Shown here piece after piece: positions 2-63,534 of a stretch of 64,000 nt of DNA (positions are counted from its first letter, which is position 1; every line of letters starts with the position of its first letter). Source of the DNA: Protoeuglena noctilucae (lineage: Eukaryota > Chlorophyta > Pedinophyceae > Marsupiomonadales > Marsupiomonadaceae). The stretch is taken from positions 1,633,694 to 1,697,693 of the forward strand of contig OY253670.1 of assembly GCA_958009085.1 (NCBI GenBank), read 5' to 3'. Below the pieces are notes generated by a model. It searched no databases and was not told the DNA's origin. It was given only the letters and a program-made list of their open reading frames with translations. The position numbers were made by a program, and so were the translations under genes.

Positions 2-1565
2 GTGGCCATCGACACGGGTGAGCGGCGCAGATGGCCACATGCTCTCACCCTCACTCTATCTCCTCCCCCCACTCTGCGCAGAGTTCGTGCAGATGGCCCC
101 TGCCGAGTGCACATGGTCACATGCTCTCACTCTTACCCTCTCTCCCCTCTCATTTGCAGAGTTCGTGCAGATGGCCCCCGCCGAGTGTGTCTACCGCGAC
201 GGTGCCCAGGTGGTGCTGCGACCGCCCCGACTGTCACTGGCACGCATATCGGGTGAGACGAGACGAGATGAGAGAGGGGCTGACTGGTGCGCAGACACCC
301 ACTCGCACTTACCGGGCGCCAACGCCCCACTGCCCTGCTCCCACCCCACCCCCAACACAGACATCCGCACCCACACCCACACCCACACTGCTACCCCCAC
401 CCCCACCCACCCCCTCCCCATCCAGTGGTGCGTGGCGACCCCGGCGACCGCACCGGCACGTGTTTCATCGACGACCACGTCCGCCGCGTGGAGCCCGTCT
501 GGGACTACCTGACGCGGTTCAGCGGTGTGTCGCCGGGTGACTTGGATGTGGGCACATCCCGCCACCACCTTACCAGTCTGAAGAAGGCGTATCTGAAGCT
601 GAGGTACCTGGTCGACTGCGGGTGCGTGCTCGTGGGGCACGGGCTCAGGTGAGAGGGAGAGGGGGGGGTGTTAGAGGTGATATTGTGAGGAACGTGCTGC
701 GACTAGAGCGCGTATTGGCAATGCATGGGCGGGAGAGTGCGATGAGAGGAGAAGGGCCGGGACGGGCGACGCGACGGTCATTGACAGTCCTCACCTCCCT
801 GCCCCCCCCTCCATCACAGGATGGACTTCAAGATGATCAACATCGTGGTGCCGCCCGAGCAGATCGTCGACACGGTGGAGCTCTTCCACTTCAAACACCA
901 GGCGAGGAAGCACAGAGACACACACACGCTAGCTCCTTGCTCGCTTGCGAGATCACAAGCACGCTGTCACTCCCTCTTCCCCTGTCTGCCACTCTCTCAC
1001 ACCCCGCCTCTCTCACCGCACACGCTGTCACTCCCCTATCCTCTCCTCACCCCGCTCGTGTCGCCCCTCCCGCACACGCGCACGCTCTCCCCTACCCGTC
1101 GCCCTCTCCTCACCCCGCTCGTGTCACCCACCCCCCTCCCCCCCAGCGCAAGCTCTCCCTCAAGTTCCTGGCCTCCTACCTCCTCCGCGTGGGCATCCAG
1201 CAGAGCGTGCACGACTCCATCGAAGACGCACGCACCGCGCTGCTGCTGTACCGGTGAGGGGTGGATGAGAGAGTGGCAGCAGACGCGTCGATGCACACAT
1301 GTCTACCCCATTCTATGGTCCGACCACAACCAATCGTACGACCTGCACCTGTTACCCATGCCATCACATCTCTCCCTGTCCCTGCGATGTTTGCAGGAAG
1401 TACCTATCCCTGGTGGAGCGTGGGGCGTTGGAGGAGACGCTCCTGGGGATGTATCGGTTCGGGAAGGCGCACGGGTGGGACCCCGCGCAGTGGGACGAGG
1501 CAGCCACGCGGCAGCTGCAGAGGGAGGGGGAGGGGCAGGGAGAGCAGGGGGGGCCTGCGGAGTGA
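2..1565 (+). CDS. PAN2: PAN2, C-terminal exonuclease domain (5' partial)
   Basis: Catalytic 3' part of the PAN2 subunit of the PAN2-PAN3 deadenylase, which trims mRNA poly(A) tails in the cytoplasm. The gene enters from the left edge, so WD40 and USP-like domains are outside. Exons read as about 2-17, 160-252, 425-648, 820-901, 1147-1253 and 1397-1565 (TGA 1563-1565). The DEDDh motifs are visible: VAIDTEFV, GHGLRMDF and HDSIEDARTALLLYRKYL, together with FIDD, WDYLTRFSG and PGDLD as in animal PAN2. The intron after codon HQ starts with GC (902-903), and no GT donor restores the frame. A duplicated acceptor lies at 81 (see repeats). Identity is from remembered family sequence and is secure for the exonuclease domain. 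Confidence 0.9.
36..187 (+). repeat. Tandem duplication of an intron acceptor plus exon start (PAN2)
   Basis: A unit of about 78-80 nt occurs twice: copy one about 36-109, copy two about 118-187. Each copy holds a pyrimidine tract, a CAG acceptor (ending at 81 and 159) and the first 28 nt of the exon encoding EFVQMAPAE. Differences between copies show they have diverged. The two acceptors are 78 nt apart, so using the first keeps frame and inserts 26 residues. Confidence 0.85.
1039..1132. repeat. Intronic duplication in PAN2
   Basis: The word CTCTCCTCACCCCGCTCGTG occurs at about 1041 and again about 63 nt later, inside the long pyrimidine-rich intron. It looks like a simple local duplication of intron sequence. 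Confidence 0.7.
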
Positions 1566-2420
1566 TGGATGAGGAGGGGCGAGCGACGTGGCTGCATGTT
1601 GGCCTTTGACCAAGCCATGCGATGCCGGTCGTCGACACTGGCAGTGCAGCGTATGTGAGATGGCATGCGCTGTGGCGCTGCCGGTACGTACGCTCGTTCA
1701 AGCAGGTACAAATACCATCCAGCGCATCGAAATGGCACCGGCAGATCAGGTGTCGTCACAAAGAGGCAGCATGGCAACGAGCGATGGGTTGACAGTGTGC
1801 ACGGCCGTGTGTTGGCGCGATCATTATCAAGCGTCGATACCTATGGGTACCTGGCACAGAGAGGGCGTGAGCCAGGGCTAGGGCCACGCCAAGAGGCGCA
1901 GCTGAGCCACTGCTGGGCTGCTGATGTTGATCGGGAACGAAGGCAGGGGCACGCGGGCGGGATGGCCGCCGGGTGCCGCCATGCCTGGGGAACACAGCGA
2001 GCAAAGGATCGACGACCCAGCACCGGAAAGCAAGGGGTGCTGGGCGGGGGGTTACAGGTACGGGTCACATGCAACGGGCGCATCGGTGCGGCCCTGCTGG
2101 GGGTAAGGCCAGCGGCGCGTTGCTACATGGCCGGCAGACGACACGCAAATCGTCCATCTGCCGCGCTCGCAACACAGAACGCAGGGCGAGTGATGAAGAG
2201 GATGTGGTGGGAGGGGTCGGCAATGGGGCGAGCTTCCATCACTCCGGCAGGACTGCGCCCGACGACCACAGTCGTTGCGTGGGCTGCGTCATCACTGCAG
2301 GGCTGGGAGCGGCGGTCACTGCAGGACAGCGTCGGTCACTGCAGTGCTTGCAGCGTCGGCCACTGCAGCGTCGCTCGCAGTGCCATCACTGCAGGGCTGG
2401 GAGTGTCGGTCGCAGTGCCG
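1566..2420. other. Intergenic, no gene recognised
   Basis: This lies between PAN2 and a convergent minus-strand gene. Open frames here are GC-driven, mutually overlapping and match no family I recognise. The 3' end holds the CTGCAG-rich repeat listed separately. Confidence 0.6.
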
Positions 2421-2445
2421 GTCACTGCAGGGCTCTCAGCGTGAC
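2285..2445. repeat. Imperfect tandem repeat rich in CACTGCAG
   Basis: Six or seven degenerate units contain TCACTGCAG followed by GGCTGGGAG, GACAGCGTCGG or GCGTCG. The phrase CACTGCAGGGCTGGGAG recurs at about 2294 and 2387. The period is irregular (about 20-45 nt). No function is visible. Confidence 0.7.
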
Positions 2446-7415: not shown

Positions 7416-10400
7416 TCACCGCCCCTGCTGCGCCTGCACGGCCCTCCGCAGCGACCCACGCACCGCCTCCCCCGTCCCCGCTGCAGCCCCGGGCGGCATG
7501 CACGCCACCCCCCATGCACCCATGCCCCCGCCACCCCCCGTCTCCTCCGGCCACTCCCCGTGCCGCCTCGCGTCCAGAAAGTCTTCCGCCCCCCTCATCC
7601 CCGCCGCATGCATCGCCCCCGCTGCCAATGCGTCCCTGGACACCGGCCCCTCCGCCCTGGCATCCACCTCCAGCCCCACCCCCAGCCCCAGCCGCGCATC
7701 CCCCGCACTCGCGTCCCCCTCCTCCCCCTCCCCCGCCAGCAGCCCCGCCCCCTCCCACGCCCCGTCCCACGCCCCATCCGCCCCCAGGGCGTACCTCCCC
7801 GCATCCCTCGCCACCCCCGCCACCTCCCTCTCCAGCAGCGCACGCAGCGCCGCCCTGCGACCCTCCTCGTGTTGCGCCTCCATCGCCGCCTCCACCTCCT
7901 CCTCCAGCACCCGCAGAGACACCGCCAATGTGCTGCCACTGCCATTACCACTGCCACTACCAGTACCACTGCCATTGGTACCCCCACTGTTACCCCCACC
8001 CCCGCCCTCCCCCTCCCCACCCCCGCCGCTCTCTTCCAACGACCGCCTGGGCCGCTTGGCCCCCCTCTCTGCGCTGAGGCACTCCCCCCCTGCCTCGTTC
8101 AGTCCGATGCCCCCCATCCGCCCCGCCAGCTCCTCGGGGGCACTGGTGGCCGCTCCCTCGGGCACCGTGGCGAGGCCCAGGGAACGGGAGGGGCGCCTGG
8201 GGGGGTGGGAGAGGTGGGTGAATGGTGAGGTGACATGGCTGGCATGAGATTGGCAGAGGTGAGCGCACGCACTCAGCATCCCCCGCATGTCACACACTCA
8301 CCTCTGCATGTCCTCGAAGTACTCGTGGCACTCCGCCTCCTCCGCCGAGCACCGCCTAGACGGATCGAATGCCAGCAGACGCGCCAGCAAATCCACCGCC
8401 TGCTCCCCCGCGAACCCGAACCGGGAGAAGAGCTTGGGCGCGCGTCCCCTCAGGTTGCGCAGGTACGAGCGCCACTGGGGGTCCGAGACGGCCTCGATGC
8501 ACGCCCAGGGGGGGGTGCCGATCACGTCGAATAGGGCCTGGGGGTTGAGGGGAGAGGGGAGTGGGGGGTGTTTGCAATGAGGGGGTGCCGATGACGTCGA
8601 AGAGGGCCTGGGGGGAGAGATGAGGCAATGGGGATGAGGGATGAGGGGGTGACGAGGACAAGGGTCGGCGCGCGCCTACCCCAATGCAACTCCCCGCTTC
8701 TTCTCCCTCACCCACAGCTCCCCTACTTGCCCGCTCTCCTCTCCACTCCCCTTTTCCCCACCCCCCCTCCCCCTCACCTGCAGTTCCCTCCTGGTCGTCT
8801 CGCTCCCCACCCCCCCCTCGTACGCATCTCCCTCGGTGGGTGTCTTGGGCATGCCCATCATGCCGTACAGGGCGAAGAGAGGGGGGACGTGCAGGCGGGG
8901 GACGGGGCGGGCGCCCGGCTGGGGGATGCGCTGCGGGGGTGATGGGTGGGGGGAGTGAATGTGAGTGGGAGTGACAGAAAGAGAGAGTGTGTGTGATAGA
9001 GTGAGAGAGTGGGAGAGTGAGTGAGACAGATTGTGCAATCATAATGACCTAACAAGTGAGTGTGACAGCCATTCATATGCATCACTCCTATCCCACGCCA
9101 CCCCCTCGCCTGCAGCAGTTCCGCGAAGATGCACCCCAGCGACCACATGTCCACGGCACTCGAGTACCCACCCCTCGACATGACCACCTCAGGGGCACGG
9201 TAGCAGGGGGTGGCCACGACTCTCGTCAAAGGGGACTGGGGGGGGCAGGCGTGGGTGCAGGAGGCGTGCGTGTGCGTGGGGGCGTCGTCAGTGTCGGTGT
9301 CCATAGACGGGCAGGGGTCCTGAGATGAGAGGAGAGGAGGGGGGATGCAGTTGGATGGGGTGGCGATGTGGAGAGGGGCAGCGGATGGACAGGCTCACAC
9401 ACTCTCTGCTGCTCCCCACGCACCCGCACCTTACCTCCCCAGCAACCCACCCTCTCCCCCTCACCTCCTGCACCCTCACCCCGTGCACCCTACCCTCTCC
9501 CCCACCCCCTCTCCCCCTCACCTCCCGCACCAGTATCACCGGCGCCGCCTCCGCCCCCGCCGGCGGCTTCTCCCCGTACCCCCTCGGCCTGGCGTGCCTG
9601 GCAGACCCCAGGTCGCAGAGCTTCACCACCAGGCGACCCCCCGCGGACCGCGTCAGGAGGCAGTTGGCGGACTTGATGTCCCGGTGCCAGATGTCGTTGC
9701 GGTGGAGGTACGCTGGGGGAGGAGTGGGGTGGGGGGGTGCTTGTCAGTAGTGACGAGTGAAGACTGCAAGTCATCATGCAATCCGTGACTACTTCGCAAC
9801 GGCCTGCAGCAGCTGTGGCATGTGACAGTGCACGTACTCACCGATGGCCTGCAGCAGCTGCCACATGAGGTCCCGCACCTCCCCCGCGGACAGCTGCCCT
9901 TGCAGAGAGAAGAGGTCGCCCCCCTCCATGTACTCGGTCGCCAAGTACAGGTCCAGCGAGTCCGCCACCAAGCGACCCCCCACCGCGTGACACGCCCCCG
10001 TGGATGCGGGGCGCAGGAAGGCGTCGCGCAGTCGCACCACCCCCGGATGCGCCACGCGTGCCAGCAGCCGCACCTCCAGTATCACCCGCCTGGCGGTGTC
10101 CGTGGTGGCCAAGGCGTTGCCGATGCGCTTCAAAGCCACGCGGGTGCACGTTCGGGCGTCCTCCGCCAAACACACCTGCGAGGGGATGCGCTAGATATAT
10201 CAGGTGATGACCACTCGTGTCCCTGTCTGCTGTCGCCCCTGCGCCTGGGTGAGCCCTGCCCTTGCCTGGCTGAAGGACCCCGCTCCCAGCTTGGACAGAA
10301 GGCGGTAGTGGGGAGGGAGGGACCATTGCTGGCCCTCCACAAACCACACGCCCTTCTCATAGCGACTCTCCACCTGCGCACGGTGAGGAGGAGAGTGGAT

Positions 10401-10586: not shown

Positions 10587-10589
10587 CGG

Positions 10590-11150: not shown

Positions 11151-14100
11151 ATGGCGGTGCGACTCAGGCTGGGCGCTATCGCCCTGATCCTGATCGCGGG
11201 CATTGCCAGGTGTGTGCCGAAGTCGGATGCGCTTGCCTGCCACGTCGTGTCCCGTGGGTCTCGTTGCAGGGAAAGGAGCGTCGTGAGTTGTGCCTGTCCG
11301 ACACGACTGCCTGCTGCGCTGGCGCGACCTCCCTCGCGCGAGGGACGGCAGGCGGGGCTGGCCGGCGGTTTGACTTGGGTCGTGAAATCCCTGCGCTTTC
11401 GCCGCTTGTGTGGGGAAAGGTCCGCTTGTGTCGTTCACGGAGATGCCGATCTTGCGATTTCTCGCCATCGCCACCGGCAATCGCCTTTCAGATGCCCGCG
11501 AGGCCTCCTCGCCATGCCCTGCGCTGTTGCGCCCCGTGAACCGCCGGCCGCGGCTTACCTGGACCCCTGCGCTGCTTCCGGGACTCACATAACCGCTCGC
11601 TTTGTGCTGCCGGCGAGTCACCTGCCCTCCCGGCCTCGCCCCGCAGCGTGCGCGCCGCCAGCATCCTCACCATCCCCGTCAAGCTCTCCACGGGCCAGGA
11701 CGTGTCTCTGCAAGTGGAGGACGGCGACACCATCGACGCGGCCGTGGACCGCTTCGTGGCGCAGTACCCCTCCGCTGCGGACTTCCATGGGTCGCTGGTC
11801 GACGCCGTCCGCAACGAGGCGAGGAGAAGGATGAGAGGGCTCGTGATGTGTGCTGCTACCTTTGCCCCTTCGCAGTCACCCTGCATCTTTCTTTGCAGCT
11901 GTGCGTCCCACTCAGTCATCGCATGCCACTCCCCCACCTCTCCCCAGGCGGTGGCAGCGCGTCTGATCCCCGAGCTCTCCGTCCCCGTGGCCCGCGAGCC
12001 CGACCAGCCCGCGCTGCTCGTGGTCGACGTCTTCCGCGGCGACGACCCCCTGGCCGTGGCGAGGGAGGCGGCGGCCAAGGCGGGGCTGGTGGGGGACGAC
12101 GTGGAGGCGGCCGTGGGGGTCGTGGCGCGGTTCGCCCAGCAGGCGCGGGTGCTGCCGCTCGTGTCGCTGCCCGTGGAGCTGCCCGACGGGTCCCAGGCGC
12201 CGCTGGAGCTCTTCAAGGGCGACGACGTGCCGCGCGTGGTGGCGGGGTTCCTGGAGGCGCGGGGGCTGGGGGGGGAGTACGCGCGGAACCTCGAGGACCA
12301 CGTCGGCGAGTAAACATGGGGATGGGTGGAGAGATGGGATGCTAACATGTCTGCAGTGACACACTTGATGCAATTGTTCTGTGACGATGCCGCGTGTCTC
12401 CTCCCCCGCAGTGCGTGAGGCGCAGAAGCTCCGGCTGATGCCCCTCATCTCCGTGGAGACGCAGATGGTGGTGCCGGGGCAGCAGGTGGCCGAGACGGTC
12501 ATGGGTGAGGCAGGGGGGGGGTTAGTGTGCACACGTGACCGCCACGGTCAAAACGCCAGGCACTGTGGCATTGGTGGCATGCGTCACCCTCTCATCTCTG
12601 CAGTGGAAATGCATGTAAGAGAGAGTACTCACAGTCACCTGCACCCCCTCTCTCCCCCCCCTTGCAGTGGAGGTGTACGAGGGCGAGAGCATCGACGAGG
12701 TGGTGGCCGTGTACGCCCGCGCCTACGACCTCCCCGAGGAGAGCCAGGCGCGGCTGGCGGCCGTCATCCACGACCGCGCCCGCTCAAGGCGCCTGGTGCC
12801 CGCGGCCACGGTGCCGACGCAGATCGTGGACGCCGAGGGGCAGGCGCGGGTGCTGGACCTGCCCATCTTCGTGGGGGACACGGAGCAGGAGGCCGTGGAC
12901 AGATTCCTGGCATCCCTCGGCATCGACAAGGCCACCATGACGCAGGAACAGGCGAGGGGGGGGTGGCTGTGGGAGAGTGTGCGTGTGCATGGCCACCGTG
13001 ACGCAGGAGCAGGTGAGGGAGCTGGGAGTGGGCATCATCACTGAGAGTGCCATGCACCCAGTGCCCCTCCGTCGCCCGCCACCCAGTCCCGCAACTGGGT
13101 GCCGTGTTGACCTTCCCCTCCCTCATCTCTCCCCCGCAGCTGGGTGCCATCTTGACTCAGGTCAAGTCCACGGCCGTGGAGGCGCGGCTGCGGCCGGCCC
13201 TGGTGCTGCAGTACGACACGCCCCAGGTGAGCATAGCATGGCATGGCGTGGCATGGCATGGGATGAGATGGCATGTGCTGCAGTACGACACGCTAGAGAG
13301 TGTCATGCGTATTTAACGGCAGCTGATCGGCAGCCACTGGCATCCCTGCATTACAGCCCCCTCTCCCTTCTCTCCCCCAGGGTGCCAAGGAGCTGGACGT
13401 GTGGTATGGCGACAGCGTGGAGGCCCAGGTCGGGTCCTTCGCGGACGCGCACGGGTACGCGGCGGAGGAGAGGAACAAGATGATCGCGGAGGTGAGGGGG
13501 GTGACACTTTCATTGCTATCTCTTCCATCCCATACACCACTCCGCTCTCCCCTTTTATAGGACAACACCACTCCCCTATCCCTCACCTCTCCCCCCATCC
13601 ACCCTACACCTCCCTCTCCCCTTCTATAGTACTACACCACTCCCATCCCTCACCTCTCTCCCCCCATCACCCCCCCTCAGGTCCACGACCTCCTCCGCCT
13701 CCGCGGCCTGGAGCCCCTGCTGGTCGAGAACATTACCCTCCCCGATGGACGCGTGGTGCCCTTCCGGCTATTCCAGGGGCAGGACGTCGAGGCAGCTGTG
13801 GCCTCCTTCCTAGACAGAGAGGGGTTCCCCGAGCACCGCGCCAACCTGCTGCAGCACGTGCAGGAGGTGGGGGTGCAGGGGCGGGTGCTGCCGGAGCTGT
13901 CCCTGGCCGCGCGGGTGAAGGGGAAGCCCGCCGAGCTGCACATGTTCCGGAGGGACGAGCCGGACGAGGTTGTCAGGGTGTTCGCACAGGTGAGGGGGGG
14001 GGAGGGGGTGGGTGGCAACTGTGTGTGACTGAGCCACACTGCATATCATCATGAGCCAAAGGCTGGTGTGTTCGCCCGCCCCTGCCGCCACGCATCGCTC

Positions 14101-14516
14101 ACCCCCCACTCTTTCGCAGGAGAACGCGTTGTCCCCCGAGGAGGCCTCCGATCTCCTCCGCGCCCTGGTCTCGGCTGCCATGGAGAGGCGCCTGCTCCCC
14201 GTGGCACGCGTGCCCATCGAGGGGACGACGCTGGAGGCGAGGCGGGGGGTTACATGTCACCACGCATGCTGTGTGGAATGATGACACGCATATACAGACA
14301 CTCGCGTGCGACGCACACCCATTGTGTGCAGCAACGCACCCCTGCTGCCCCGCATCACCCCCTTTGCCCCACTCCCCCCACCCCCAGTTCCTTCTCTTCG
14401 ATGGCGACAATGTCTTTGACAAGGCCGAGGAGTTCCTCCACGCCCACGACCTGGCAGACACCGTGGACCTGCGCTCTTTGGTGCGCATGGTGCAGCTGTC
14501 GCACGTGGGGGCGTGA
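11151..14516 (+). CDS. Secretory protein of tandem PFU-like repeats
   Basis: Not a protein I can name. The start (MAVRLRLGAIALILIAGIAS) is a good signal peptide, so it should enter the ER or be secreted. About ten exons (11151-11209, 11647-11818, 11949-12305, 12412-~12504, 12668-12951, ~13140-13226, 13381-~13492, 13681-~13989, ~14120-14236, ~14388-14516) encode roughly 530 residues. Units of about 55-80 residues recur: beta-like stretch, a GD/GQD/RDE turn, then AVxxFLxxxxL and a helix. Examples are LFKGDDVPRVVAGFLEARGL, LFQGQDVEAAVASFLDREGF, MFRRDEPDEVVRVFAQENAL and LFDGDNVFDKAEEFLHAHDL. This resembles the ubiquitin-binding PFU pattern of PLAA, but secretion argues for another ligand. Four introns use GC donors. 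The GC donor at 12306 is required because read-through meets TAA. Confidence 0.7.
12925..13295 (+). repeat. Three exon-edge echoes in one repeat-protein gene
   Basis: Exon edge ACCATGACGCAGGAACAG (ending 12951) recurs as ACCGTGACGCAGGAGCAG ending about 13011. Exon start CTGGGTGCCATCTTGAC (about 13140) is preceded by CTGGGTGCCGTGTTGAC at about 13098. Exon end GTGCTGCAGTACGACACG (13203-13220) recurs at 13275-13292. A weaker fourth pair is CAGTGGAAATGCATG near 12600 and CAGTGGAGGTGTACG near 12665. Confidence 0.8.
13545..13675. repeat. Intronic tandem duplication, about 70-nt period
   Basis: Two copies of a pyrimidine-rich unit, CTCTCCCCTTTTATAG and CTCTCCCCTTCTATAG followed by ACACCACTCCC..., lie inside one intron just before the exon at 13681. 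Each carries an acceptor-like TAG. Confidence 0.75.
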
Positions 14517-14918
14517 GGCCACGAACATGCTTAGGGGTGAAGGGAAGGATGCGAGATGGGGTGCTGTGGCCATTAACATGGCGTGTAGCTCGGCAGTTGA
14601 GGTGCCCTTGTGCAGGGCCATGGACGGTGGAGTGGGTGTGCTCAGGTGCTAGCTGAGACGCACCGCAAGGCATAGGATGCGAGAAAGCGAATGGGATGGG
14701 AGGTGGTTGATTCACGACAGCACTGGCCCGGACAACGGCCGTTTGAACGTGGCAGTGGGGCTGGCAACGCGAGTCACGAGTCACTTTCAGTCGCAGCGTC
14801 ACTGACACGGGACACGGCATCGCTTGCTTGACAGCCGCAGTCACGTGGAGTCACTAACCCTGGGCTTGGGGGCGCACCATCGCTGGCCTCGCCTGCACCG
14901 CCGCAACCCCCGCTGCAT
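14517..14918. other. Convergent intergenic region
   Basis: This is 3' flank of the repeat-protein gene and of the HAD-methyltransferase gene. No gene or clear polyadenylation signal was seen. Confidence 0.5.
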
Positions 14919-17580
14919 CTACGACCCCTCGCCCCCCTCGCCACCCTCGCTCCCCTCGCTCCCCTGCCCCGGCTTGCGCGCCACCAGCCTCAGCACCCGG
15001 TCCCGCCCCACCGCCCCCCCTCGCACCTGCAGCCGCGCCCCGTACTCGCACACCAGCCCCGCCGCCCACACGTGACGCAGCAACGCCCACTTGTCCTCAC
15101 TACGCATCACTGGGGGCAGCACGCGAGGGCACAGCATGGTGCACGCACATCTAGCTTGCCATGAGTAATATCGTCACACACGACAGTCGCCACCTCCGCA
15201 TCGCATTCCCAGGCACAGCCACCCCGCCTGCCGCACTGCGTCTGCGCCCCTCACCCGCTTCCAGGCACAGTGCCCCCCCCGGCCGCAGCACCGACGCCAC
15301 CTCGGCCACCGCCCCCGCATCCCGCACCAAGGCCTTCACCACCGCCGCACCCGACTCGTCACCCCCGCTGCCTGGGCCCAGGTACACCACTGCCACATCG
15401 AAGAGGCCCCCACCCGTGGGACCCACTGCGGGAAGAGGAGCAGTGACGCATGAGATCACGGCACCCGTATGCCACTGCCACGAGAGGCTTGCTTGCGATG
15501 CACAGAGACTTGCAAACACTTGACATCTCTTGCCATCTGCCCCACTCCCCTCGCCTTGCACCGCCGGCCCGCAGCTCCCCTCCGCCAGTGCCTCCCCCGC
15601 GAACGCCACCGCCATGAGACCCCTCCGCAGGCACAGGCCCGGGTCCGCGTCGATGCCCACGCACTGCAGTCCCTGGCTGGCCATGAGCTTGGTCAGCGCG
15701 CCCGCCCCGCTCCCCACGTGGAGCACGCGGTGACCTGGGGGCAGCGGAGAGGTGGCGAGGGTGGTGGTGCGGTGGCAAGGGTGGAAAGCGCACGTCAGGG
15801 AGCGAGGGTGGTGGAGCACAGGTTGTCATCATCGACAGAGGGGGAGATGGAGAGGATGGCACAGCTATGCGCATGCACACGTGAGTAAGAGTGACTAGTG
15901 CGTCGCGCGTGGGCTCTGCGCGCATCCAACTTCCACTCACCCAGCGTGGGCGACCCCTGCATGCCCCCCGCCGCGTTGCCCATCCGCGGGAACGACGACT
16001 CTGCCGTGGCGATCACCCCCCGGCTGTACATGTCATCCAAAAAGTCGATGCCGGGTGGGGGCGCGCCCGCCATGCCTGGGGAAGGAGTGGGGAGTGGGTA
16101 CGTGAGGGATGGGCAGTGGCATCCGTCAGTGTCAGTGCAAGGGTGAGTGGTGGATGCATGTGCCTGCCCTGCCAGCGTCACAATGTGCCATCACTCACGC
16201 ACTCACACCCACGGCCACCCCCCCACTCACCCGTGTCCGGCAGCTCCCCGTCGACGGACTCCAGCGCCGCTTCCCTCGCAGTCGCGCCCGCCTGGTCCCA
16301 CGAGAACCCCGGCTGCCAGGGCCGGGGAGGGGCGGGGCGGCCAAGCCCGGGGCTCACGCGGCCGTCTTGCAGCCGGGACAGCAGGTCGGGCAGACCCGAG
16401 ACTGGGGGGGTTGGAGGCGGCATGGGTGCGGAGAACGCAGGGGGCAGGCGGTGTGCAGGCCTGCCGAGCTGCCACTGCCCGTCCCCCAGTGTATGGTCAT
16501 GTCGCATGCGTGTCACACTGCGCATCTCCTGTGGCAACCACTGCACTCGCAGAGCACGCTTCACAGGTCTCACCCGTGAAGGTGGGCACTGCCCCCCCCA
16601 GCGCCCCCGCCGCCGCCACCTCGTTCCCCCCCTCCTCGATGAAGCACGTGGCGGTGCCTGCCCCGTTGCCGCACTCGACGTCCTCGGTCGAGTCACCCAC
16701 CATGAGCATGTCACGGGGATCTGAGGGGAGAGAGTGGCATATGGGCATGGGCACGCTATGGCAGAGAGGGCAGCGCAGCGAGCAGAGGGCATTACGTGTC
16801 GCATCGGTCAGGCATGTGTCGCAGCAGCACTGACTGTCCCCCCCCTGGCCTCACCCACGCCCCACTCGTCCGCCAGGTCCCTCAGCAGTCGGTAGTCGGG
16901 CTTCACATGGCGGTGGTGCCGAGTAATCACAGCGTCGAAATACCCCTCATACCCGGGACCCAGCACCCGCAGGAACCCATCCACGCTCGCGGGGGTGTTG
17001 CGCGTCACCAGGGCCACGCGGGTGTCACCCGACGCCTTGAGGTAGTCGAGGAGCTCTCGCAGACCGGGCATGATCTGCAGAGTCTCCACCGCCTGCCTCT
17101 GCGGACGGACCGGTAGGCGACGGTGAAGGGGTGGCAACACAAGGGCAGCGGTGGGGGCAGCGGTGGAGGGGGCAGCGCCAGGGGTAGCAGTGGGGACCGT
17201 GCACCACATCTGCCGCTCCTGCTCCGGCTGCCCCTCGCCTCGAGCTCGATGATGAGCGCCATGGCGTCGGCAATGCGGGCCTCGTCCGGCCAGGCCTCCA
17301 TCGTCGTGAAGAGGTCGCCGAAGGGGATGCCGCACCGCTCTCGCATCGTGTCGAAGTCGATGTTGGACACCGTCAGGGTGCCATCCATGTCAAAGACGAC
17401 GCCCTTGTAGCGGAACGGCTTTGAAGGGGCAGCCGGGACGGTGCCGGCCACGGCGGGCGCCGTGCCACGCGCCTGGACGAGCCGCGTGCCAGCGAGAGGC
17501 CCAACGGAACGAGCGGTCGGGAGAGGATGCAGCGTGGAGAACCGCGGCGCAGACTTCCGTCGGCTGCAAAAGGGGCACAC
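14919..17580 (-). CDS. HAD hydrolase fused to SAM-dependent methyltransferase
   Basis: One reading frame is maintained through about eight exons. The N-terminus MCPFCSRRKSAPRFS is basic and Ser/Ala-rich, like an organelle presequence. HAD domain: motif I GVVFDMDGTLT (nucleophile and acid Asp), LRELLDYLKASGDTRVALVT (motif II Thr), HVKPD (motif III Lys) and MLMVGDSTEDVECG (motif IV). A linker follows (LPDLLSRLQDG, ELPDTG then MAGAPPPGIDF, joined in phase across the intron at about 16070-16226). The second domain is a class I methyltransferase: motif I HRVLHVGSGAGALTKLM, post-I GIDADPG, motif II FDVAVVYLGPG and LRPGGALCLEA. It ends in a Gly/Glu/Ser tail at 14919. Introns at 17238 and 15554 use GC donors fixed by frame. 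Substrates are unknown. Transcript continuity across the linker is the main uncertainty. Confidence 0.75.
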
Positions 17581-48357: not shown

Positions 48358-49762
48358 CTATCTCAAACAGGCGTGGGTTGCGCGTCGCGTCAGGGGGTGG
48401 GGACGCCCGCCGTCGGGGCCTCCTGCCCCGGGGCGAGGAGCGTGACCTGGGTACAGAGCATAGCAGGGACGGTGTCGCATGGTGCAGTGCGATGTGCATG
48501 CCCGGTGAGCCACCCGTGCCACTTGCATGCCGCGCCTCGCCTGGTCATCGAGGATGTGACGGACTTGCGCGAAGCTGGTGGCGAAGAAGTGCGGCTCGGA
48601 CTCAGTGCCCCTCAGGCAGTCCCGCTGCTGGGGTGCCGCGAATGCGCCGTACGAGTCGAGGAGCACCGTCAGGGCACCGGCCCTGCGGCCGAAGGGGACG
48701 TCGTCGCGGGCACTGTCCCCGACCATGAGCACCTCCGAGGGGGGGATGCCCTGGGGGTGGGGAGATGGGCAGGGTCGAGTGGACTGATGGATGTGTCGTG
48801 GGGTGGGGAGAGGGACAGGGATGTCAACCATGCTGCAGAGTGCAACAAGGGTGTTTTCGAGACCATCCATTGCGCACCCATGCGTCGCAACAGGCCAGCA
48901 GGGCGTCCGGGTGGGGCTTCACGCGGTGCCCAGAGTCACGGGAGATGGCGGGGGCGAAGGGGCTGCGGGAGGGGCAGAGAGATACGAGAGAGTGGCAGAT
49001 CGCGGCCAATCGCACCCATGGCCCGCTGCTGCCTCGTAGTGAACGTCACTACTCCCATCGTGCTCACGGGAGTGGGAAGTGGTGTCGGTGGAAGTAGTCG
49101 AGGTTCTCTTGCGCATTCTGGGTGACCACGGCCCTGGGGATGCCCCGGCGGTCGAGGTCCGCGCACTGCAAGGGACGCGGCATGTAGCAGCGTTGGTGAG
49201 GCCAGACAGGGACCCCCAGCTCAGATGACACGCTCGACCCCGCCACACCCTCACCAGCTCCAGCACGCCCTCCGTCACTCGCAGCTTGACCAGCGCCTCC
49301 CGCTCCATCTCCCGAATCACCGCGCGCGCCGCCGACTGGCGCTCCGGGTCCCACGCAGCAATCGTCTCCAGGATGTGCGCGCCCTGCGATGGGCGTGGCG
49401 GCCGTGTGGGTGTGAGCGTTTGCGGGCAGGCGAGGGGCCACCTGCGGCTCATCAAGGCGAAAATGGGCAGACAGGGCCCTCACCGGTGCAAGGCCTATCC
49501 GCCTCCGCATCTCCGCGAAGTCGAAGACCGGCGCCGTGAGCGTCCCATCTGCGGCAAGTGGATGTGCGTGTCGTCCGATGGGAGCCGCCGGCCGGCTGCA
49601 TGCGGAAGCTTCCATTACGATCGCCAGGCTATCGGAGCGCGACTCACCCATATCCCATACGATGCCGCGCACGATGGGGTGCCCGGATACGCCCGTGCCA
49701 AATGGCGCCCCTGCGGCGCGGCTCTCCTCCAACCAAGGGGAGTGGGAAGCCGTCGACAACAT
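48358..49762 (-). CDS. HAD-superfamily hydrolase (stand-alone)
   Basis: Exons splice to GIVWDMDGTLTAPVFDFAEM (motif I assembled across an intron, 49551 to about 49650). Then follow RRRIGLAPG, ILETIAAWDPERQSAARAVI, REMEREALVKLRVTEGVLEL, ADLDRRGIPRAVVTQNAQEN (motif II Thr), SRDSGHRVKPHPDALLACCD (motif III Lys) and PSEVLMVGDSARDDVPFGRR (motif IV). The C-terminal frame runs to 48358 but may end earlier by splicing. The start at 49762 (MLSTASHSPW) is provisional because the frame stays open upstream with a basic, presequence-like stretch. It resembles the HAD half of the gene at 14.9-17.6 kb, so the two may be paralogues. The phosphorylated substrate is unknown. Confidence 0.8.
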
Positions 49763-53358: not shown

Positions 53359-55831
53359 ATGGCGGGGACCGAAAGCGATGTGGAGAGCGAGGGGCCCGAT
53401 GCCGTGGGCCCGGCCTCCGTTGACGCGGGAACGCAGCCGGGTGCATGGTTCTACCTCCACCCTGGCACTCAGCAGACATACGGCCCATATACCGTGGCCA
53501 GTGAGGAGCGCGCTCCGTGCCTGGTCTAGCAACGACCATCGCCGCGTCCGGTGCGCACGATCCGCGCTGCGAGGTCCATCCGCGCAACGTAACGCTATTG
53601 TACATCATGCAGGCCTGGTCGAGCTGGCGCGGTCCGGCTTCCTCGTGCCGTCGCTGCCCTTTGCCCATGCGGGAGGGCAGGAGTGGGCCGCCCTGAGCGA
53701 CGTGGCGGAGCTGAGGGGCGTGTATGAAGCGATACCGGAGGAGATGGCGAAGGTGCGTTCACGGGAGGCGCGTGGGACTTGGTTGGCAGCCTGTACTGGG
53801 CAATCCAATTCATGCAGTGCCCCGCGCTTCTCGGGCAGGTCGCCGGACAGCCCGCGGCCGCGGACTCGGCGCCGGGCGCCTCCCAAGCCACCGCAAGACA
53901 GCCATCAAGCCAAGGCGCCGACGGCCGGGACGCGGATGCGCCTGGGCCAGCGGGTGCCCCCGACCGCTTACAGGCGCACCTGGCCAAGCGGCAGCGAGCG
54001 ACGGTGGGGCAGAGGGCCGAGACCGTGAGCCACGCGGACCTGGACATGCTGCGCTTCCAGACGGAGGTGGCAGGCGAGATGTCATGGTAGTCACTGCATA
54101 CACTGTGCCTTCCATGGCCGTGCTGGGGGGTCAGGGCGTGTGTCGCACAGCGCTGCCCGCAGGGCTGATGGGCCGGCCCCCGCCCACGGCTGCTGCGGCT
54201 GCCCCCGCGCCCGTGCCTGGCCCTCCTGAGGAGCGTGAGTTCGTGGATGACGATGGGACGCGGTACGTGTGGGACGAGCGGGAGGGGCGGTACGTGCCAG
54301 CACCCGCGGGGCCCGTCCCCACCTACTCGGTCGACGACATGGTGTTCCAAGCAGAGGGGACGCCGGCGGACCCGGTGACACCTGCAGGGGGACCAGCACC
54401 CACTGTGTGCCAGCACGCGCATGTGGTGGCACTGTGCTGGCTGTCATGGCGCGTGCCAATGAGCCCCTGACCACCCCCGCAGCCGACCAAGGACCCTCCC
54501 CCCGCGGACCCACCCGGCAAGCCCCCCCAGGCCCACACCACCACGTGCGTCTACATCCAGGGCCTGCCCGATGACGTGACGGAGGAGGAGGTGGCAGAGG
54601 TGTTCTCCAAATGCGGCATCATCCGGGAGGATGAGAACCGCGTCAAGAAGATTAAGGCGAGGCGACGGGGAAGGGATGCTGAGGGATGCGGGGCGGGGTC
54701 GCCGGCAACATCAGCATGGCGCTGTTCCCGACGCAGATTTACCGCAACAAGCAGACGGGACGGCCCAAGGGGGACGCCCTCGTGACCTTCCTCAAGCGCC
54801 CCTCCGTGGACCTGGCGCTTCAGATCCTGGACGGCGCGCCCTTCCGCCCGGATGGGCTGCCCATCAAGGCGAGTGAGGGTGGTGGGGAGGGGCGGGGCAG
54901 GGGCGGGCTGCCCATTATGGCGAGTGACTTAGGGTGGTGGGGAGGGGCGGGGCAGGGGCAGTCACCGCGTCTGCCTGTATGGCATTGCTTATCGTGCATT
55001 CAACCTCGTCTGCAGGTGATGGAGGCGCAGTTCGACGACAAGGCGCAGGGGGGAAACGACCGGGGCGCGGAGCAGGGCGGAAAGGCCAAGGGGAAGGTGG
55101 GCGGGACTGCGGGTGCGGGAGATGGGCGACAGCGCTGGTTGTGCAGGTGTTGACCGCTGTCCGTCCCCTCGCTCGCAGCCCGGCGTGTCCCGGGGCTCCA
55201 AGCGCCGGCGCACCCCTGCGCAGGAGCAGCTGCTGCACTGGGCGGGGGACGACGAGATGCAGCGCCCGCAGGAGGTGGTGGTGGTGCTGGAGGGGGTGTT
55301 TGACCCCCAGGACATGGCGGTGGGGACGAGGGAGAAGAAGGAGGCGCTGCTGGCGGCGCTGATGAAGGACATGGCGCGGTTCGGGAGGGTCGACAAAGTC
55401 AGGTGCGACGGTGGGGAGAGACTGCGATGTTGTTGTCTCGCCATCAAGCTCTCCGTCCGTCGACCCACCCCGCGTGTCCCCTTCTTCTCCCTCCCAGGGT
55501 CTTCCCCCAGCACCCCCAGGGCGTGTGCACGGTCAAGTTCATCGACGGCGACTGCGCCACGGCCGCGGTGGAGGGCATGGACGGGGGCGTCTACCGGGGA
55601 CGCACCCTGCGTGCGTTCAAGTGGGACGGAAAGCGCAAGTTCGCTGCGGAGAAGGTGCAGGAGACGGAGGAGGACGAGGCGAGGCGACTGGAGGCCTTCT
55701 CGCGGGAGCTGGAGGGGGAGGAGGGAGGGGCGGAGGCGGGGGCAGGGACGCGGGGGGCTGACGCGGGCGCAGAGGCACAGGGCGCTGCCTGGGGTGACGA
55801 CGAGGACGACGACGAGGGCTGGCACCACTAG
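53359..55831 (+). CDS. HTATSF1/CUS2-like splicing factor with GYF domain
   Basis: U2 snRNP-associated factor. The N-terminal GYF-type domain is assembled from two exons: GAWFYLHPGTQQTYGPYTVA joined to SLVELARSGFLVPSLPFAHA. A linker (VDDDGTRYVWDEREGRYVPA) precedes RRM1: TTCVYIQGLPDDVTEEEVAE and FSKCGIIREDE, continued in the next exon as KIYRNKQTGRPKGDALVTFL. The second, UHM-like RRM is VVVVLEGVFDPQDM, ending GVCTVKFIDGDCATAAVEGM and RGRTLRAFKWDGK. The C-terminus is acidic (DDEDDDEGWHH). Plant homologues also carry the N-terminal GYF-like module. Donors at 54657 and 54869 are GC; the first is in the highly conserved KIK|IYRNKQTG junction. A stretch around the second is duplicated (see repeat). 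Confidence 0.9.
54855..54957 (+). repeat. Exon-edge echo in splicing-factor gene
   Basis: GGGCTGCCCATCAAGGCGAG (about 54854) recurs as GGGCTGCCCATTATGGCGAG (about 54905) and both are followed by GTGGTGGGGAGGGGCGGGGC, a period of about 50 nt. The second copy lies in the intron. Confidence 0.85.
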
Positions 55832-57001: not shown

Positions 57002-58283
57002 ATGGACCCGGCCGAGGAGCAGGCGATGGAGATCGAGGCGCTGCAGGCCATCCTGATGGACGACCTGCACGTGTACGAAGGGAGGGTGCCGGACGTAAGG
57101 GCCACCTGCCGGGGCCGGGCACTCTAGGCCGGATATTGCATTGCGAAAGCAGACGAGGCACGCCCGAGCCGCCCCTCGCTTGCAGGGCTGGCCCGCCGAC
57201 GCCCAAATCTACTCGATCATCCTGTCGCCGCTCGAGGACGGCAGCGTGGGTGAGCAGCGCCCGCTGCCACTTGCCAGACGCCCGGCCCCGCAACCCTGCG
57301 TCACTGCAGCCACGCCACCACCTTTTGTCCCCTGCAGAGCGCGACAAGGCCCCGGCCCTGCTTCAGTTCCTGTTTGCGCACACCCCCGGCTACCCCGCCG
57401 AGCCTCCCCTGGTGCGCCTTCGCAGCGAAAAGGGCCTGAGTGACGCGCGGGTGGCGTCTGCTTCTGCCGTGGTGGACCGCGTGGTGGGGGAGCACCTGGG
57501 GACGCCGATGGTGTATGACCTGATCACGGCGGCGAGGGAGTGGCTGATGGAGGCAGCGGGGCAGGCGAGCGGGGAGCGGGAGCGGACAGGAGGGTGTGAC
57601 GTGGGTGGTGTGCGTGCGTAATGAGTGCAGTGGGGTGCCCATGGCTGCAGGCGACGCAGGAGGCGGAGGACGAGATGGACCACGTCAAGGCACGGAAGAG
57701 GGAGGAGAGGGAACTGAGGGACAGGGAGGCGCAGGTGGGGGGAGGGGAGGGGGCAGGTGTGGGAGTGGGGCAGCGATGGCGCATGTGTGTGTCGCCCACC
57801 CCTGTGGTCATCCCGTGCCTGTCCCCGCAGCGCGCCAAAGGCACCGCGGTGACCCCCGCGTCGTTTGCGGAGTGGAAGGAGCGCTTCGACGCCGAGGCTG
57901 CCCTCCAGCAGGCCAAGCTCATGGACGTGCGTGCGCACGAGGAGCGGATGAAGAGGCCCACGGGGCGGCAGTGGTTCGAGGCGGGGAAGCACGCGGCAGA
58001 CGAGGAGCCGCTGGGTGAGAGGGTGTGGGTTGCTGTGGTGGGGATGGTGACTGTGTGTGTCTGCATGCTCATGTGATGGTGATGGTCGCGTGTGTTTGTG
58101 CTCGGCAGGGGAGGGGGACGAGGACGGCATGGACGGCATCGGGGAGGGCGGGGACAGCGACGAGGACGACGACGAGGGATTCCTGGCCGCGTATGGCAGG
58201 GGAGGGGAGGGGAGCGACGGGGATGTGTTTGACGATGATGATGACGATGAGGACGATGAGGACTACGTCGAGGGGGAGGACTG
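57002..58283 (+). CDS. RWDD1: RWD-domain protein RWDD1 (DFRP2-like)
   Basis: Start MDPAEEQAMEIEALQAILMD, the hallmark RWD N-terminus. It continues with SIILSPLEDGS, LQFLFAHTPGYPAEPPLVRL and a C-terminal helix LITAAREWLMEAAGQ. The DFRP-type tail follows: EAEDEMDHVKARKREERELR, then TAVTPASFAEWKERFDAEAA and RPTGRQWFEAG, as in RWDD1/Gir2. It ends in an acidic DDDDDDEDDEDYVEGED tract. RWDD1 partners DRG2 GTPases and influences translation. The intron at 57565 starts GC (MEAAGQ|ATQEAED). Six exons. Confidence 0.88.
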
Positions 58284-58445: not shown

Positions 58446-61400
58446 TCACCGCCCGTATGCCGGCCCCGGTGCGATGGCCATGAGTCCCCCCTGGTCGCCG
58501 CCTCCCCCCACGGGCCCCCCGCTCGCCTGCAGCGGGGCGTGGCACAGGGGGCAGGCCACGTGGCCCAGCACGTACTCGCTCAGGGAACTGCGGGATGAAG
58601 ACGGCAGGAGAGTGTCAGCCATGCGGGCAGGCACATGGGGAAAGCCCCCACACAGTGCCTGCTTGAACAGTGCAGTGCCTTCCCACACAATGCCTGTCCC
58701 TCGCCTGTGCCCGCAGGTGCGGCACTTGACGGCCGACCGCGTGCCCAGGAGGTGCCCCGAGGACACGCACACCCCGCTGCGGATCTCCGCCGCACGCAGA
58801 CGCTCGGCCTCGTCCGTGGGGTCGCGGGGCTGCAAGGGGCGACGAGTGGATCACAGTCGCATACACGCACACGTGGAGTGCCCAGGCTCGTAGATGCTCT
58901 CATCTGCGCCTCACCTGGTGCTGCGTGAAGATGGCGAAGGCAAGCTCCGTGAGTGCCTCTGCCTCGGCCCCCTTCCCCCCCCCCATGAGCTGCAGCCGCG
59001 TGAATGCCCGCGAGCACTCCCCCATGTACCCCGCGTAGAAGGACGTCAGGGCCAGCACCGAGTGCACCTCGCGCGCACCCAGCGCGGACTCGAACTTGAC
59101 AAGGTGGATGGCTGCGCGCATGCCGCCCTCGAAGTCGCCCTCGTAGATGCCGCGCAGGGCCATGAGCCAGAAGTGCCACGCCAGGGCGCCGTCCCAGGCG
59201 CTGCCCACCTCCCGCACCGCCATCTGGGGGGGGACAGAGATGCACGTTGTTACTCAACGGCGCACCCTGCACCTCCACCCCACCTCCGCACACCCATCGG
59301 CCATCCCGGCTGCTCCCACCCCTACTCCTCACCCCGGATGCGTCTGCCTTCATCAGCACCTCATCAGCACCCTCATCCACTCCTCACCTCGGATGCGTCT
59401 GCCTTCATCAGCCCCGCCAGCGTCTGCTGCGTGGCGTTCCCCCCCCTCGCCCCAGCTCCCACCATTGTCTGCCCCGCCCGCGTCGCCAGCCGCGTGGCGC
59501 GCGACGTCACCCCCGCCGCCGCCCCCCCCACCTCCGCCGCCAGCGACCGCCGCTTGAAGGCCTCCACCTCCAGCGCCGCCAGCACGTGCAGCTTCTTCAT
59601 GCGCAGGGGGGGCGCCCCCCTCTCCCCCGCCTCCCTCGCCACCTCCAGCAGCAGCTTGGCCGCCTCCAGGTGCTCTAAAGCACGTCGGTACAGGTCCACG
59701 GCGCGGAAGGTCTGCTGCCGGGCGCGCAGCTGGCTGGCGTGGCGCACCAGCACCTGCGCCGCCTGGCCGTAGTCGTGCTCCTGGGCCAGGTCGACGGCGA
59801 TGTCCCACTCGTGCAGCGCGATGCAGCAGTCGATGGCGCGCTTGACCTGCCCCGCCTTGAGGAAGGCCGTCACGGCCGCGTCGCACACGCCCGCTGCCGC
59901 GAGCTTGTCGCCCAGGGCTGGGGGGAGGGGGAGGGGGGGATGGGGGTTGGCTGTCACCTGAAACGGAAGGGGGTGGGGGAGTGGTGGAGAGGGGTGAGCG
60001 GTGGGTGGACTGGGGGGAAGGGGTGAAGGAGGGAGTGGCGCAGAGGGGTGATGGGCGAGGAAGTGTACGATAGAGGTGGATGCTAGAGTGAGAGTTGGAT
60101 GCCTGCACGCGATGCCACCGACGCGTGACTCACTGAGCAGGAGCGGGTCCCCCTCGGTGAGTGCGTCGATGAGGCTCTCCAGTCCCTTTAAGTCGTCCAG
60201 GCGGTGGAAGCACTCCAGCGACTGTGCGGAGTTCTTGGCCATGACGAAGTAGCGCACCGCCTGCCGCCACGCGCCCCTCTCGGCGTAGTGCTCGCCCAGT
60301 CCGTTGAAGGCGCGGGTGCGGAGGGCGTCGTCGCCGAATCCACTGTCGAGGAACTTGGCCACGTGGAACCAGTCGCCCAGGCGCACGCGGAGATCCAATG
60401 CCAGGTCCACGCGGTCCATCTCCACTAAAAGGGCCTGAGAGAGAGAGAGAGAGAGAAGGGGATCGTGCACTGCCACTCGCAGCTCAGCACAGCCACGCCC
60501 CAGGCAAACGCGGTGACGAAAGCCCGCCCTTACATGTGACGCCAGTGCCTGCCAGTGACTGCACCCACACCTCTGCCACAGTGCATGTACAACCACAGTG
60601 CTCCACTCACCTCCGCCTCGTCGAATCTCTCCAAGAAGGCCAGCGCCTCGGCCCTCTGCTTCCACGCCTCCCCCAGGCCCCGCAGCCGCTTCACCAGCTG
60701 GATGCCGTGCCAGTCGCGGCCCTGAACGGTCGACGCAGAGAAGCAGGCGTCACAGACAGGCATGCGGTGTCACAGAAAGGCACGCGTTACAAAGAGAGAG
60801 AGAGACGCCATTGGTAGAACAGCATGGCATCAGCCACTCCCCTGCTCTCCCCACCTGCACGAATGCGCGGTCTGCCAGGTCCAGGTCGAGTCTCTCCAGG
60901 GCCGTCTCCGCCACCACGCGCCACAGCCGGGGGTGCCCCGCCTTGCGCATGAACTCGAGCAGGTCGTCGCGGGTGCCCTGGGCCAGCAGCGACCGCGCCT
61001 GCTGCAGGGGACGCGTCTCCACACGCTGCACCCACGCGGGCTGCGGGTCGGCGCCTTCCCCGGAGCAGAGGCGGTCCACGTCCACCACCGTCACTGCGAG
61101 GGGGCGATGATGCATGTAAGTACTCTTAAGCACGCCAGCGCAGACCAGACCCTCGCATGCGCCACCACCCACGCAACCATGCAAGTGCTGATCGATCACC
61201 CCCGCCCCTCCCTTCTCACCCGTGAGTCCCTCGAATCGTGCGATGTACGACGAGCACGGCACGGGCTCCTCCGCCTCCCCGTCCCGCATCACCACCAGCC
61301 GCGCCTTCTCCATCACCGCCTGGGGGTGGGGTGAATGAGACAGGGTCAGTCCGACACCGTGGCATGGGTCCATGCATGCGTGCATGCCAAGCACACACAG

Positions 61401-63534
61401 AGAGAGACAAAGAGTCATGGCATGCATGACACATGCCACCATGGCACACGGCAGCAGCCCAGCACTCACGAGGCTCAGGGGGTCGTCCTCGGCCCATGCC
61501 ACGTCCCACACGTCCCTGCGCTCCACCCCCAGGTCCGTGGCTGCGCACCCCGCCACGCCCAGCTCCAGCCGCTGCACGCACAGCGCCCCGTGGTCCAGCA
61601 CCGCCGCCAGCCGCGTGCCGTCGCAGTTGGCCGCCAGCCGCGCGGGGGACGCGGGCAGGGCCAGGCGCCCCAGCAGCCGCATGTCCGACAGCTGGTACAC
61701 GGCCACGCCCCCCGAGGCCCTGCCCACGAAGAGGTGCGTCGCGGACAGGGCCACGCACGTGGCGGGGTCGGCCGTGCCGGCGGGGGTGAAGCGGTCCAGG
61801 GCCCAGTTGTCGCTGGTGCTGCCGGCGTCGACGGAGAAGATCCACTCCGAGCGGCGGGAGGGGGCGGGGGGGGCGCCGGGCCTCGCGGCGGGCGGCAGCC
61901 GCCACACGAACACAGCGTCGTGGCTGGCGGCGGCGAAGAAGGCCTCGGTCATGGCGGCGGCGCGGAGGTCGACGGAGAGGGCGTGCTCGGCGAGGGGGGT
62001 GCCGATGCTGTCGCACAGGGACGCCACGCTGCCCCCCGCCTCCCCCCGCGACACCAGCACCGCCGCCGCCCCCGCCGCCCGCAGCAGCGACAGCCGCGGG
62101 GCGGGCTTCACCACGGCGTCGCCCGACCGCGGGTCCCAGAAGACCACCTGCGCGGGGCCGCGGTCGGGGCGCGCGGCGAAGGCCACGGTGCCGTCCGCCA
62201 GCGCCCCCCACCGGTGGTCGGGCCTCACGGTGGCGAAGTAGACGAAGGCGTCGACAGCGGCTGCCAGCCTGAGCCCCGTGCCCTCCCATGAGACGCTGGA
62301 GAGGGAGGATCCGGGGAGCTTGAGGCTGCGGAGGTGGGTGCCGTCGTGGGAGAAGAACTCAACCACTAGCGCTCCCCCTTCAAGGGACGCGGGGGACATG
62401 CCCTGGGGGACATGGGGGGAGGACATGGGTGTGGAACAGGACATGAGTATGGGATGCAGACATGCTTTGTAGGAGAGCAAAGGAGTGGCAGTGGATGCCA
62501 TGCCCCCCTCTCTCTCTCACCGGCGCCTTGAGCCCCCCCGCCACGAGGAGGACGTCGCCCGTGGGGGACCACCTCAGGTGCTGCAGGCGCAGACCCGTGT
62601 CGAGCTCGATGGGGCTGGGGTCGCGGTGGCCGCTCATCAGCTGCACGTGCCCCGTGCTGATGCCCACGGCCAGGCACGCGCACCCCTCCTCGGGGTAACC
62701 GCGGGTGCCCGCGTACCACTCCACCGCCACGATGCGCGCATTGGGGCGGCCCTGCGAGGACAGGGGGAGTGGGCCACGGCAGTCGTTGTCAGGTCACACC
62801 CAGCTTCTCCATGCACGGCACGCCACCTTGCATCCGCATCCCCGCCCCCTCTCCCTCACCTGCAGCACTGCGAGAGGGACCTGCTGGATGGCGTTCCCGC
62901 TGGCGTCGTACAAATGGCACTCGGTCTCGGTGCAGAAGAGGATGAGTCGGCTGTCCGGGGACCACTCCACCAGCGCCAGGTTGGGCAGGGCTCAGGTCCT
63001 TGCCCCACAGGCGCTTGCCGTCCACGGACCCCACGATCACGGCGGCGTCCGCGTACGCGATGCAGATCTTGAGGCCGTCCGCCGACCACCGCATGTCCCG
63101 CACCGTCGACTTGTTGCGGTTGTTGATCATCTCCTCGTACCACTGCCCGTCGTGGAACATCCACACAATGATCATGCCGGACTCATCTGAAGACGTGAGC
63201 TTCTGGTACTGGTCGTTCCAGCGCACCACGCGCACCCCCTCCTGGTGGCCCGCCAGGCTCTGGTTCATCGTCAGGTTGACGCCCGCGCTCCCGGGGTCGA
63301 TCTTCAGCACCTTCAGGAGGCCCTTGTCGCCGCCGAGGGCCACGAAACCCTCCGTCATGCTCCAGGCGATGCACCTGCGCGGCATACGGAGACGGGGGTC
63401 CCGGCGGGGCGCGGCGGGCCTCAGCATGGCAATGAGCGCTCGGGTTGCAGGGCCCTCCACGGCCCCGGCGCGCGGGCTTGCCTGGGCATGATGCCGTCGG
63501 GGATGGCGATCTTCTTCGAAAGGTACGCGTTCAT
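58446..63534 (-). CDS. IFT121: Intraflagellar transport protein IFT121 (WDR35)
   Basis: IFT-A retrograde transport subunit. Start [18 protein letters not shown] joined through a GC donor (63481) to [20 protein letters not shown]. Two WD40 propellers: [80 protein letters not shown] and later blocks to [21 protein letters not shown]-like helices follow: [40 protein letters not shown] and [20 protein letters not shown]. The C-terminal zinc region is CRTCGH joined by a second GC donor (58704) to [20 protein letters not shown]. Order and motifs match human WDR35 throughout. One extra base appears between WGKDL and NLALVEW (about 62985-62998), shifting frame in this assembly. An exon-edge echo lies at 59325-59412. 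About 14 exons. Confidence 0.95.
59325..59412 (-). repeat. Exon-edge echo in IFT121
   Basis: A 33-nt block, CTCCTCACCTCGGATGCGTC and onward, spanning exon end and donor (plus sense 59380-59412), recurs at 59325-59357 with one mismatch, period 55 nt. Only one copy is needed for the reading frame. Confidence 0.85.

Follow-up and report, generated by a model that had tools for sequence, protein, structure and literature searches.

Does a single stretch of genomic sequence really use GC in place of GT at the start of so many of its introns, and if so, what would allow it? The question was raised by a first-pass annotation of a 64-kb stretch of contig OY253670.1 (64,000 nucleotides, hereafter the window), in which 24 introns, against about 140 placed by eye, i.e., roughly one in six, were listed as staying in frame only with a GC donor. 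GC is present at each of the 24 positions, in the orientation given, and the donors had been described as nearly all AG|GCGAG or AG|GCAAG, which holds for 23 of them; the exception, at 12306, is CG|GCGAG. Here, two independent methods, a gene-structure hidden Markov model (HMM) and spliced alignment to homologues, agree that GC-AG introns are abundant, and confirm that about one predicted intron in five in this stretch starts with GC.

A gene model without GC preference recovers the GC donors

The HMM read both strands, combined coding periodicity, intron content, donor and acceptor matrices and intron lengths, and was self-trained. At the start GT was weighted 0.5 and the remaining 15 donor dinucleotides 0.5/15 each, which put GC on a par with the other 14. 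The first pass gave 139 introns, with 100 GT donors, 23 GC donors and at most 4 of any other dinucleotide, and at convergence 144 introns were modelled (108 GT, 33 GC, 1 CT, 1 AT and 1 CG). All 24 GC sites listed before were regained, together with 9 more. The weakest of the earlier sites were 63481 (0.8 nats), 57565 (2.3), 32918 (3.2), 58704 (3.5) and 54869 (3.6), and among these 63481 is backed by its homologue and 58704 by two homologues. The calls that were neither GT nor GC (2439 CT, 5730 AT, which lies beside a run of N, and 18540 CG), with a low support of 1.4-4.3 nats, were not counted. When the acceptor dinucleotide was left free, AG was found in 139 of the 144 introns.

The GC sites could in principle be artefacts of reading by eye, i.e., frame-keeping gaps in GC-rich coding sequence in which AGGCGAGG is common. 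The outcome of the free start argues against this, with 33 GC calls beside 3 of all other non-GT dinucleotides. As a control, the model was retrained on a mutated copy of the window that had GT in place of GC at all 33 donors; 143 introns were then obtained (141 GT, 1 AT and 1 CG), and none had a GC donor. When one dinucleotide was added to GT with the parameters fixed, GC gained 272.8 nats, whereas the other 14 ranged from -21.1 to 104.9 (AG being the next best), and when the model was retrained for each added dinucleotide the score was 4700.5 with GC, 4489.4-4555.3 with the others and 4503.8 with GT alone. Once both GT and GC were allowed, any third dinucleotide was chosen 0-4 times. A version of the model blind to donor context chose 23 GC sites, 13 of them with the full consensus (-2A, -1G, +3R, +4A and +5G; R, purine), and the other 14 dinucleotides together gave 1 such site. 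What speaks for an artefact is that, when a prior of 0.22 was imposed on another dinucleotide, 4-23 spurious introns of that kind turned up, so that individual weak calls need caution; these forced-prior controls are impure nulls, in which other dinucleotides partly replace the forbidden GC sites. In addition, 4 of the 33 GC calls of the HMM look wrong or doubtful, and homology on its own picked 13 GC sites of which 6 were off consensus.

Spliced alignment to homologues

Spliced alignment of twelve homologue templates to the genomic sequence used no information beyond BLOSUM62 scores, AG at the acceptor and the set of donor dinucleotides that was permitted. By homology alone 13 GC donors were chosen, and 7 of these had the full consensus together with a YAG acceptor (Y, pyrimidine), namely 902, 24858, 25129, 47557, 54657, 58704 and 63481, and at each of them the protein alignment runs without a gap across the junction. 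From the remaining 14 non-GT dinucleotides, 1 full-consensus YAG site was obtained in total (AT at 24530). The GC sites at 5712, 24549, 34081, 55126, 62498 and 62974, which lie off consensus, were taken as alignment artefacts. In the kinesin, the Kar3 spliced alignment reaches precisely to the 32918 junction, 5 residues short of the end of the template, and the Kar3 protein alignment matches VNST past it. A search of the PDB with the kinase domain gave no match at 1e-50, and the GC sites at 9109 and 10265 therefore lie outside the homology test.

The mutated-copy control, the likelihood gain and homology exclude chance as the source of the GC donors. With no GC donor among the 143 introns of the mutated copy and seven homology-backed full-consensus junctions, the artefact reading is already contradicted and we regard it as highly improbable. 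The same seven sites bear on another possibility, namely a role of the GC donors in regulated or alternative splicing. This has a precedent, since a link between GC donors and alternative splicing is described in PMC2490688 for human, nematode and Arabidopsis, but at these seven sites conserved protein requires removal of the intron, and donors of roughly 21% of introns, spread across many genes, would hardly form a special regulatory class. A regulatory role is thus not favoured, and we hold it to be quite unlikely.

Curated share of GC-AG introns

Among the 9 additional GC calls of the HMM, those at 22406, 36595, 46965, 48540 and 54074 were kept, and those at 6537, 63003, 8093 and 29147 were dropped. 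The call at 6537 lies in a tandem copy within the Hsp90 intron 6437-6673 that was set by homology; the IFT121 alignment continues across the donor at 63003 and instead opens an off-consensus gap of 49 bases at 62974; and 8093 and 29147 are off consensus at +4. The raw GC count of 33 among 144 introns thus became 29 of 137 GT-or-GC introns, i.e., 21.2% (95% interval 14.7-29.0%), a share in which the GT calls were not curated likewise. At the Chlamydomonas reinhardtii rate (2.1%), at least 24 GC introns in 140 would be expected with a binomial P of 2.7e-15, and the share in the window also exceeds the 7.7% of Chlorella (P = 5e-7).

The 29 curated GC-AG introns, all of them called by the HMM, are listed below with any further evidence; "context-blind" marks sites also chosen by the model blind to donor context, and "added" marks sites absent from the first-pass annotation.

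902..1146, plus strand, PAN2; spliced alignment to two PAN2 homologues
8931..9109, minus strand, protein kinase; context-blind
10176..10265, minus strand, protein kinase; context-blind
11819..11947, plus strand, repeat protein without Pfam match; context-blind
12306..12411, plus strand, repeat protein, CG|GCGAG donor; context-blind
12952..13006, plus strand, repeat protein
14237..14387, plus strand, repeat protein
15426..15554, minus strand, HAD-methyltransferase protein; Pfam
17099..17238, minus strand, HAD-methyltransferase protein; top GC support in the forced-prior run; context-blind
22312..22406, minus strand, protein without Pfam match, added; 12.3 nats (forced-prior run)
24774..24858, minus strand, RSP7; Chlamydomonas RSP7 alignment; context-blind
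25012..25129, minus strand, RSP7; Chlamydomonas RSP7 alignment; context-blind
27752..27895, plus strand, MscS-like channel; Pfam; context-blind
31355..31447, plus strand, MORN/filamin protein; Pfam
32778..32918, minus strand, Kar3-like kinesin; Kar3 alignment ends at the junction, VNST matches beyond
36270..36347, minus strand, Kar3-like kinesin, outside the motor domain
36519..36595, minus strand, kinesin N-terminus, TA|GCAAG donor, added
38186..38264, plus strand, unknown protein
46434..46525, plus strand, class 3 lipase; context-blind
46965..47066, plus strand, class 3 lipase, added; 11.5 nats (forced-prior run); two lipase alignments disagree
47557..47698, plus strand, class 3 lipase, junction FR|VTNSRD; two lipase homologues
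47796..47884, plus strand, class 3 lipase
48447..48540, minus strand, HAD hydrolase, added; Pfam
54074..54162, plus strand, Tat-SF1-like splicing factor, added; context-blind
54657..54736, plus strand, Tat-SF1-like splicing factor, junction KIK|IYRNK; Tat-SF1 alignment; context-blind
54869..55015, plus strand, Tat-SF1-like splicing factor; context-blind; Tat-SF1 alignment disagrees
57565..57650, plus strand, RWDD1-like; context-blind; RWD domain
58588..58704, minus strand, IFT121 C-terminus; Chlamydomonas IFT121 and WDR35 alignments
63375..63481, minus strand, IFT121 N-terminus, junction PR|CIAW; HMM weak, 0.8 nats; Chlamydomonas IFT121 alignment

Donor context and intron anatomy

It had been proposed that the rest of the donor compensates for the mismatch at +2, and this is backed statistically, in that the context of the predicted GC donors is stricter than that of the GT donors. 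In the trained HMM set, counted after removal of the two off-consensus GC calls (a step that slightly tilts the comparison toward a stricter GC context), -2A was found in 27/29 GC and 60/108 GT donors, +4A in 29/29 and 83/108, and +5G in 29/29 and 94/108, and all five consensus bases were present in 27/29 GC donors vs 30/108 GT donors. At +3, where a purine is present in all 29 curated GC donors, A was found in 6/29 GC vs 2/108 GT donors (p = 0.001). The strictness in the trained set may partly reflect selection by the model, and the context-blind run therefore matters. Among its sites with at least four of the five consensus bases, all five were present in 13/14 GC vs 27/75 GT donors (p = 8e-5), and when all of its sites were counted +3A was found in 4/23 GC vs 3/118 GT donors (p = 0.014). 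Selection of calls would hardly account for the enrichment of +3A, since the trained matrix favours +3G; the enrichment also runs counter to composition.

The median intron length was similar for both kinds (102 for GC and 111.5 for GT). No U12-type donor (like ATATCC, as given in PMC3033335) was found among the 29 curated GC donors. Introner-like introns were not found either; a repeat search (seed 18, minimum 30) gave six short direct-repeat families, almost all of them local, and no repeat that spans whole introns and recurs in different genes. Judged by their sequence, the predicted GC introns have the features of U2-type GC-AG introns, i.e., a GC start, an AG end and the rest of the donor nearer to the consensus than in the GT introns.

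Local duplications and gene content of the window

The end of an Hsp90 exon and its donor are present in tandem, at 6393-6443 and 6493-6543, 100 bases apart and 94% identical. The first copy, which is the one used according to homology, has a GT donor, and the second, which is intronic, has a GC donor; a 4-base indel distinguishes the copies at this point. This tandem may record a change from a GC to a GT donor through duplication, or it may be an artefact of assembly or alleles. A run of 200 N lies within the same gene (5746-5945). In PAN2, an acceptor and the start of its exon are doubled, at 78-109 and 156-187 (spacing 78 bases, identity 97%). Other short, local tandem duplications, spaced by 55-94 bases, were observed at 2260-2411, 54871-54959 and 59312-59415, and the second of these sits in the GC intron that starts at 54869.

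The best PDB matches of the modelled proteins included RSP7, eL43 and IFT121 (with WDR35 second), which we take to come from Chlamydomonas, a plant and Chlamydomonas, respectively, and the window is thus probably green-algal, as far as a small and uneven set of proteins can indicate. Other PDB matches were Hsp90, class 3 lipases, HIV Tat-specific factor 1, PAN2 and Kar3. Three queries (part of RSP7, the IFT121 N-terminus and eL43) gave no confirmed relative in viral contigs. Two predicted proteins combine domains: the one at 14919-17388 has a HAD hydrolase domain and, after it, a weak match to a methyltransferase, and the one at 28884-32406 has both MORN and filamin repeats (all by Pfam). The protein at 11492-14652, inside which four GC introns lie, is repeat-like by eye and has no Pfam match at 0.001.

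Origin of the GC donors

The G+C content is 68.1% over the whole window, and in the gene models it reaches 0.912 at third codon positions (GC3), with 0.643 in introns and 0.664 in intergenic sequence. We consider it likely that the GC donors belong to ordinary U2-type introns in which C at +2 is tolerated, through the pressure of composition together with a strong donor context. They would be introns of the major spliceosome with C for T as the second base and with the acceptor remaining AG. In a genome pushed toward G+C (68% overall and 91% at third codon positions), changes from T to C at +2 would keep arising, and they could be fixed where -2A, -1G, +3R, +4A and +5G pair with U1 strongly enough to bear the C mismatch. 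The standard 5′ end of the U1 small nuclear RNA (snRNA), 11 bases long, is AUACUUACCUG, and a scan of the window with Rfam, in which U1 snRNA was sought, gave nothing at the gathering threshold. We infer that the GC introns are spliced in RNA, that the 5′ end of U1 is the usual one and that composition is the driver. The ratio C/(C+T), which within introns serves as a neutral pyrimidine proxy, was 0.617 there vs 0.212 at +2. If mutation, selection and drift are in balance, this one window would give, as a rough estimate, a scaled preference for T at +2 of about 1.8, which is weak yet nonzero.

Such a weak implied selection for T at +2 (about 1.8 scaled units) would also suit a different explanation, in which the machinery of this lineage is relaxed or altered at +2 (by a U1 variant, proteins of the U1 small nuclear ribonucleoprotein (snRNP), a base modification or the catalytic core) and composition provides only the supply of mutations. 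This is in line with the account in PMC3033335, where, for its high-share species, composition is held to be only a partial cause and the U1 sequence an unlikely one, and base modification or U1 snRNP proteins are proposed. Against it, the GC donors appear to need a stricter context than the GT donors, which implies that C at +2 is not neutral here, and the putative U1 5′ ends of Aureococcus, M. pusilla and Micromonas RCC299 given in that source are standard. An altered recognition of +2 seems to us rather unlikely, and we would give about the same low weight to its fuller form, in which this flagellar-gene-bearing alga is an independent lineage where a change in the machinery freed +2 from most of its constraint, so that GT-AG would be drifting to a mixed GT/GC code bounded only by the remaining donor strength.

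Several observations weigh against the reading of abundant, compensated GC donors driven by composition. In the context-blind model, the total score was higher with AG (4258.4) than with GC (4238.9), and GC stands out solely by the consensus at the sites chosen; when all context-blind sites were counted, -2A, +4A and +5G were alike in GC and GT donors. In the homology test, the gain in total score with GC (304) was only moderately above that with CA (218) and GA (207). This gain discriminates only moderately because free donors can slide, and it is the consensus of the chosen sites that discriminates. Two of the sites that were kept, 46965 and 54869, have no backing from homologues: at 46965 both lipase alignments use a GT intron from 46896, in a poorly aligned stretch, and at 54869 the Tat-SF1 alignment takes instead the GT at 54879, 10 bases further downstream, where conservation is poor. 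Finally, G+C alone is no predictor, since in the figures of PMC3033335 RCC299, with 64.1% G+C, has 2.7% GC-AG introns and M. pusilla, with 65.9%, has 22.2%, and in the mammalian comparison of PMC2490688 donor conversion rates had no clear dependence on regional composition.

Comparison with other algae and implications

Emiliania huxleyi is a haptophyte, and M. pusilla has a low intron density. The window, which is intron-dense (144 modelled introns) and, at the repeat-search settings given above, free of introner-like repeats, is unlike M. pusilla in both respects, and resembles it, as well as Aureococcus and Chlorella, as a high-G+C alga rich in GC-AG introns. For these algae PMC3033335 gives GC-AG shares of 39.6% (Aureococcus anophagefferens), 22.2% (M. 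pusilla) and 7.7% (Chlorella), and it ties high shares to high G+C, with RCC299 (2.7%) as the exception. Emiliania huxleyi, a very G+C-rich alga, likewise has common GC-AG junctions: among 241 junctions 56% were GC, and reverse-transcription PCR was used to check 13, including 9 with GC (PMC4028052). This share is well apart from the roughly 21% found here, where the best PDB matches are from the green lineage. The green alga C. reinhardtii has the same class of introns but at 2.1% (532 GC-AG and 25,053 GT-AG introns; PMC2846911, Table 2), and the mean across 121 plant genomes is 1.2% (PMC6310983). With a G+C content above about 65% and a share well above 2%, the window, as a single window, fits the GC-AG-rich high-G+C algae.

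The abundance of GC donors as such is already published for several GC-rich algae, and the window therefore joins a known set. It apparently adds one more GC-rich green lineage to the short published list of those with common GC donors, and the signs of donor compensation (+3A and -2A) are visible in the window alone. Gene finders restricted to GT donors would mis-model about one in five introns here. What caused the shift, which is called an enigma in PMC3033335, could be tested directly by comparison with a close relative whose share is low.

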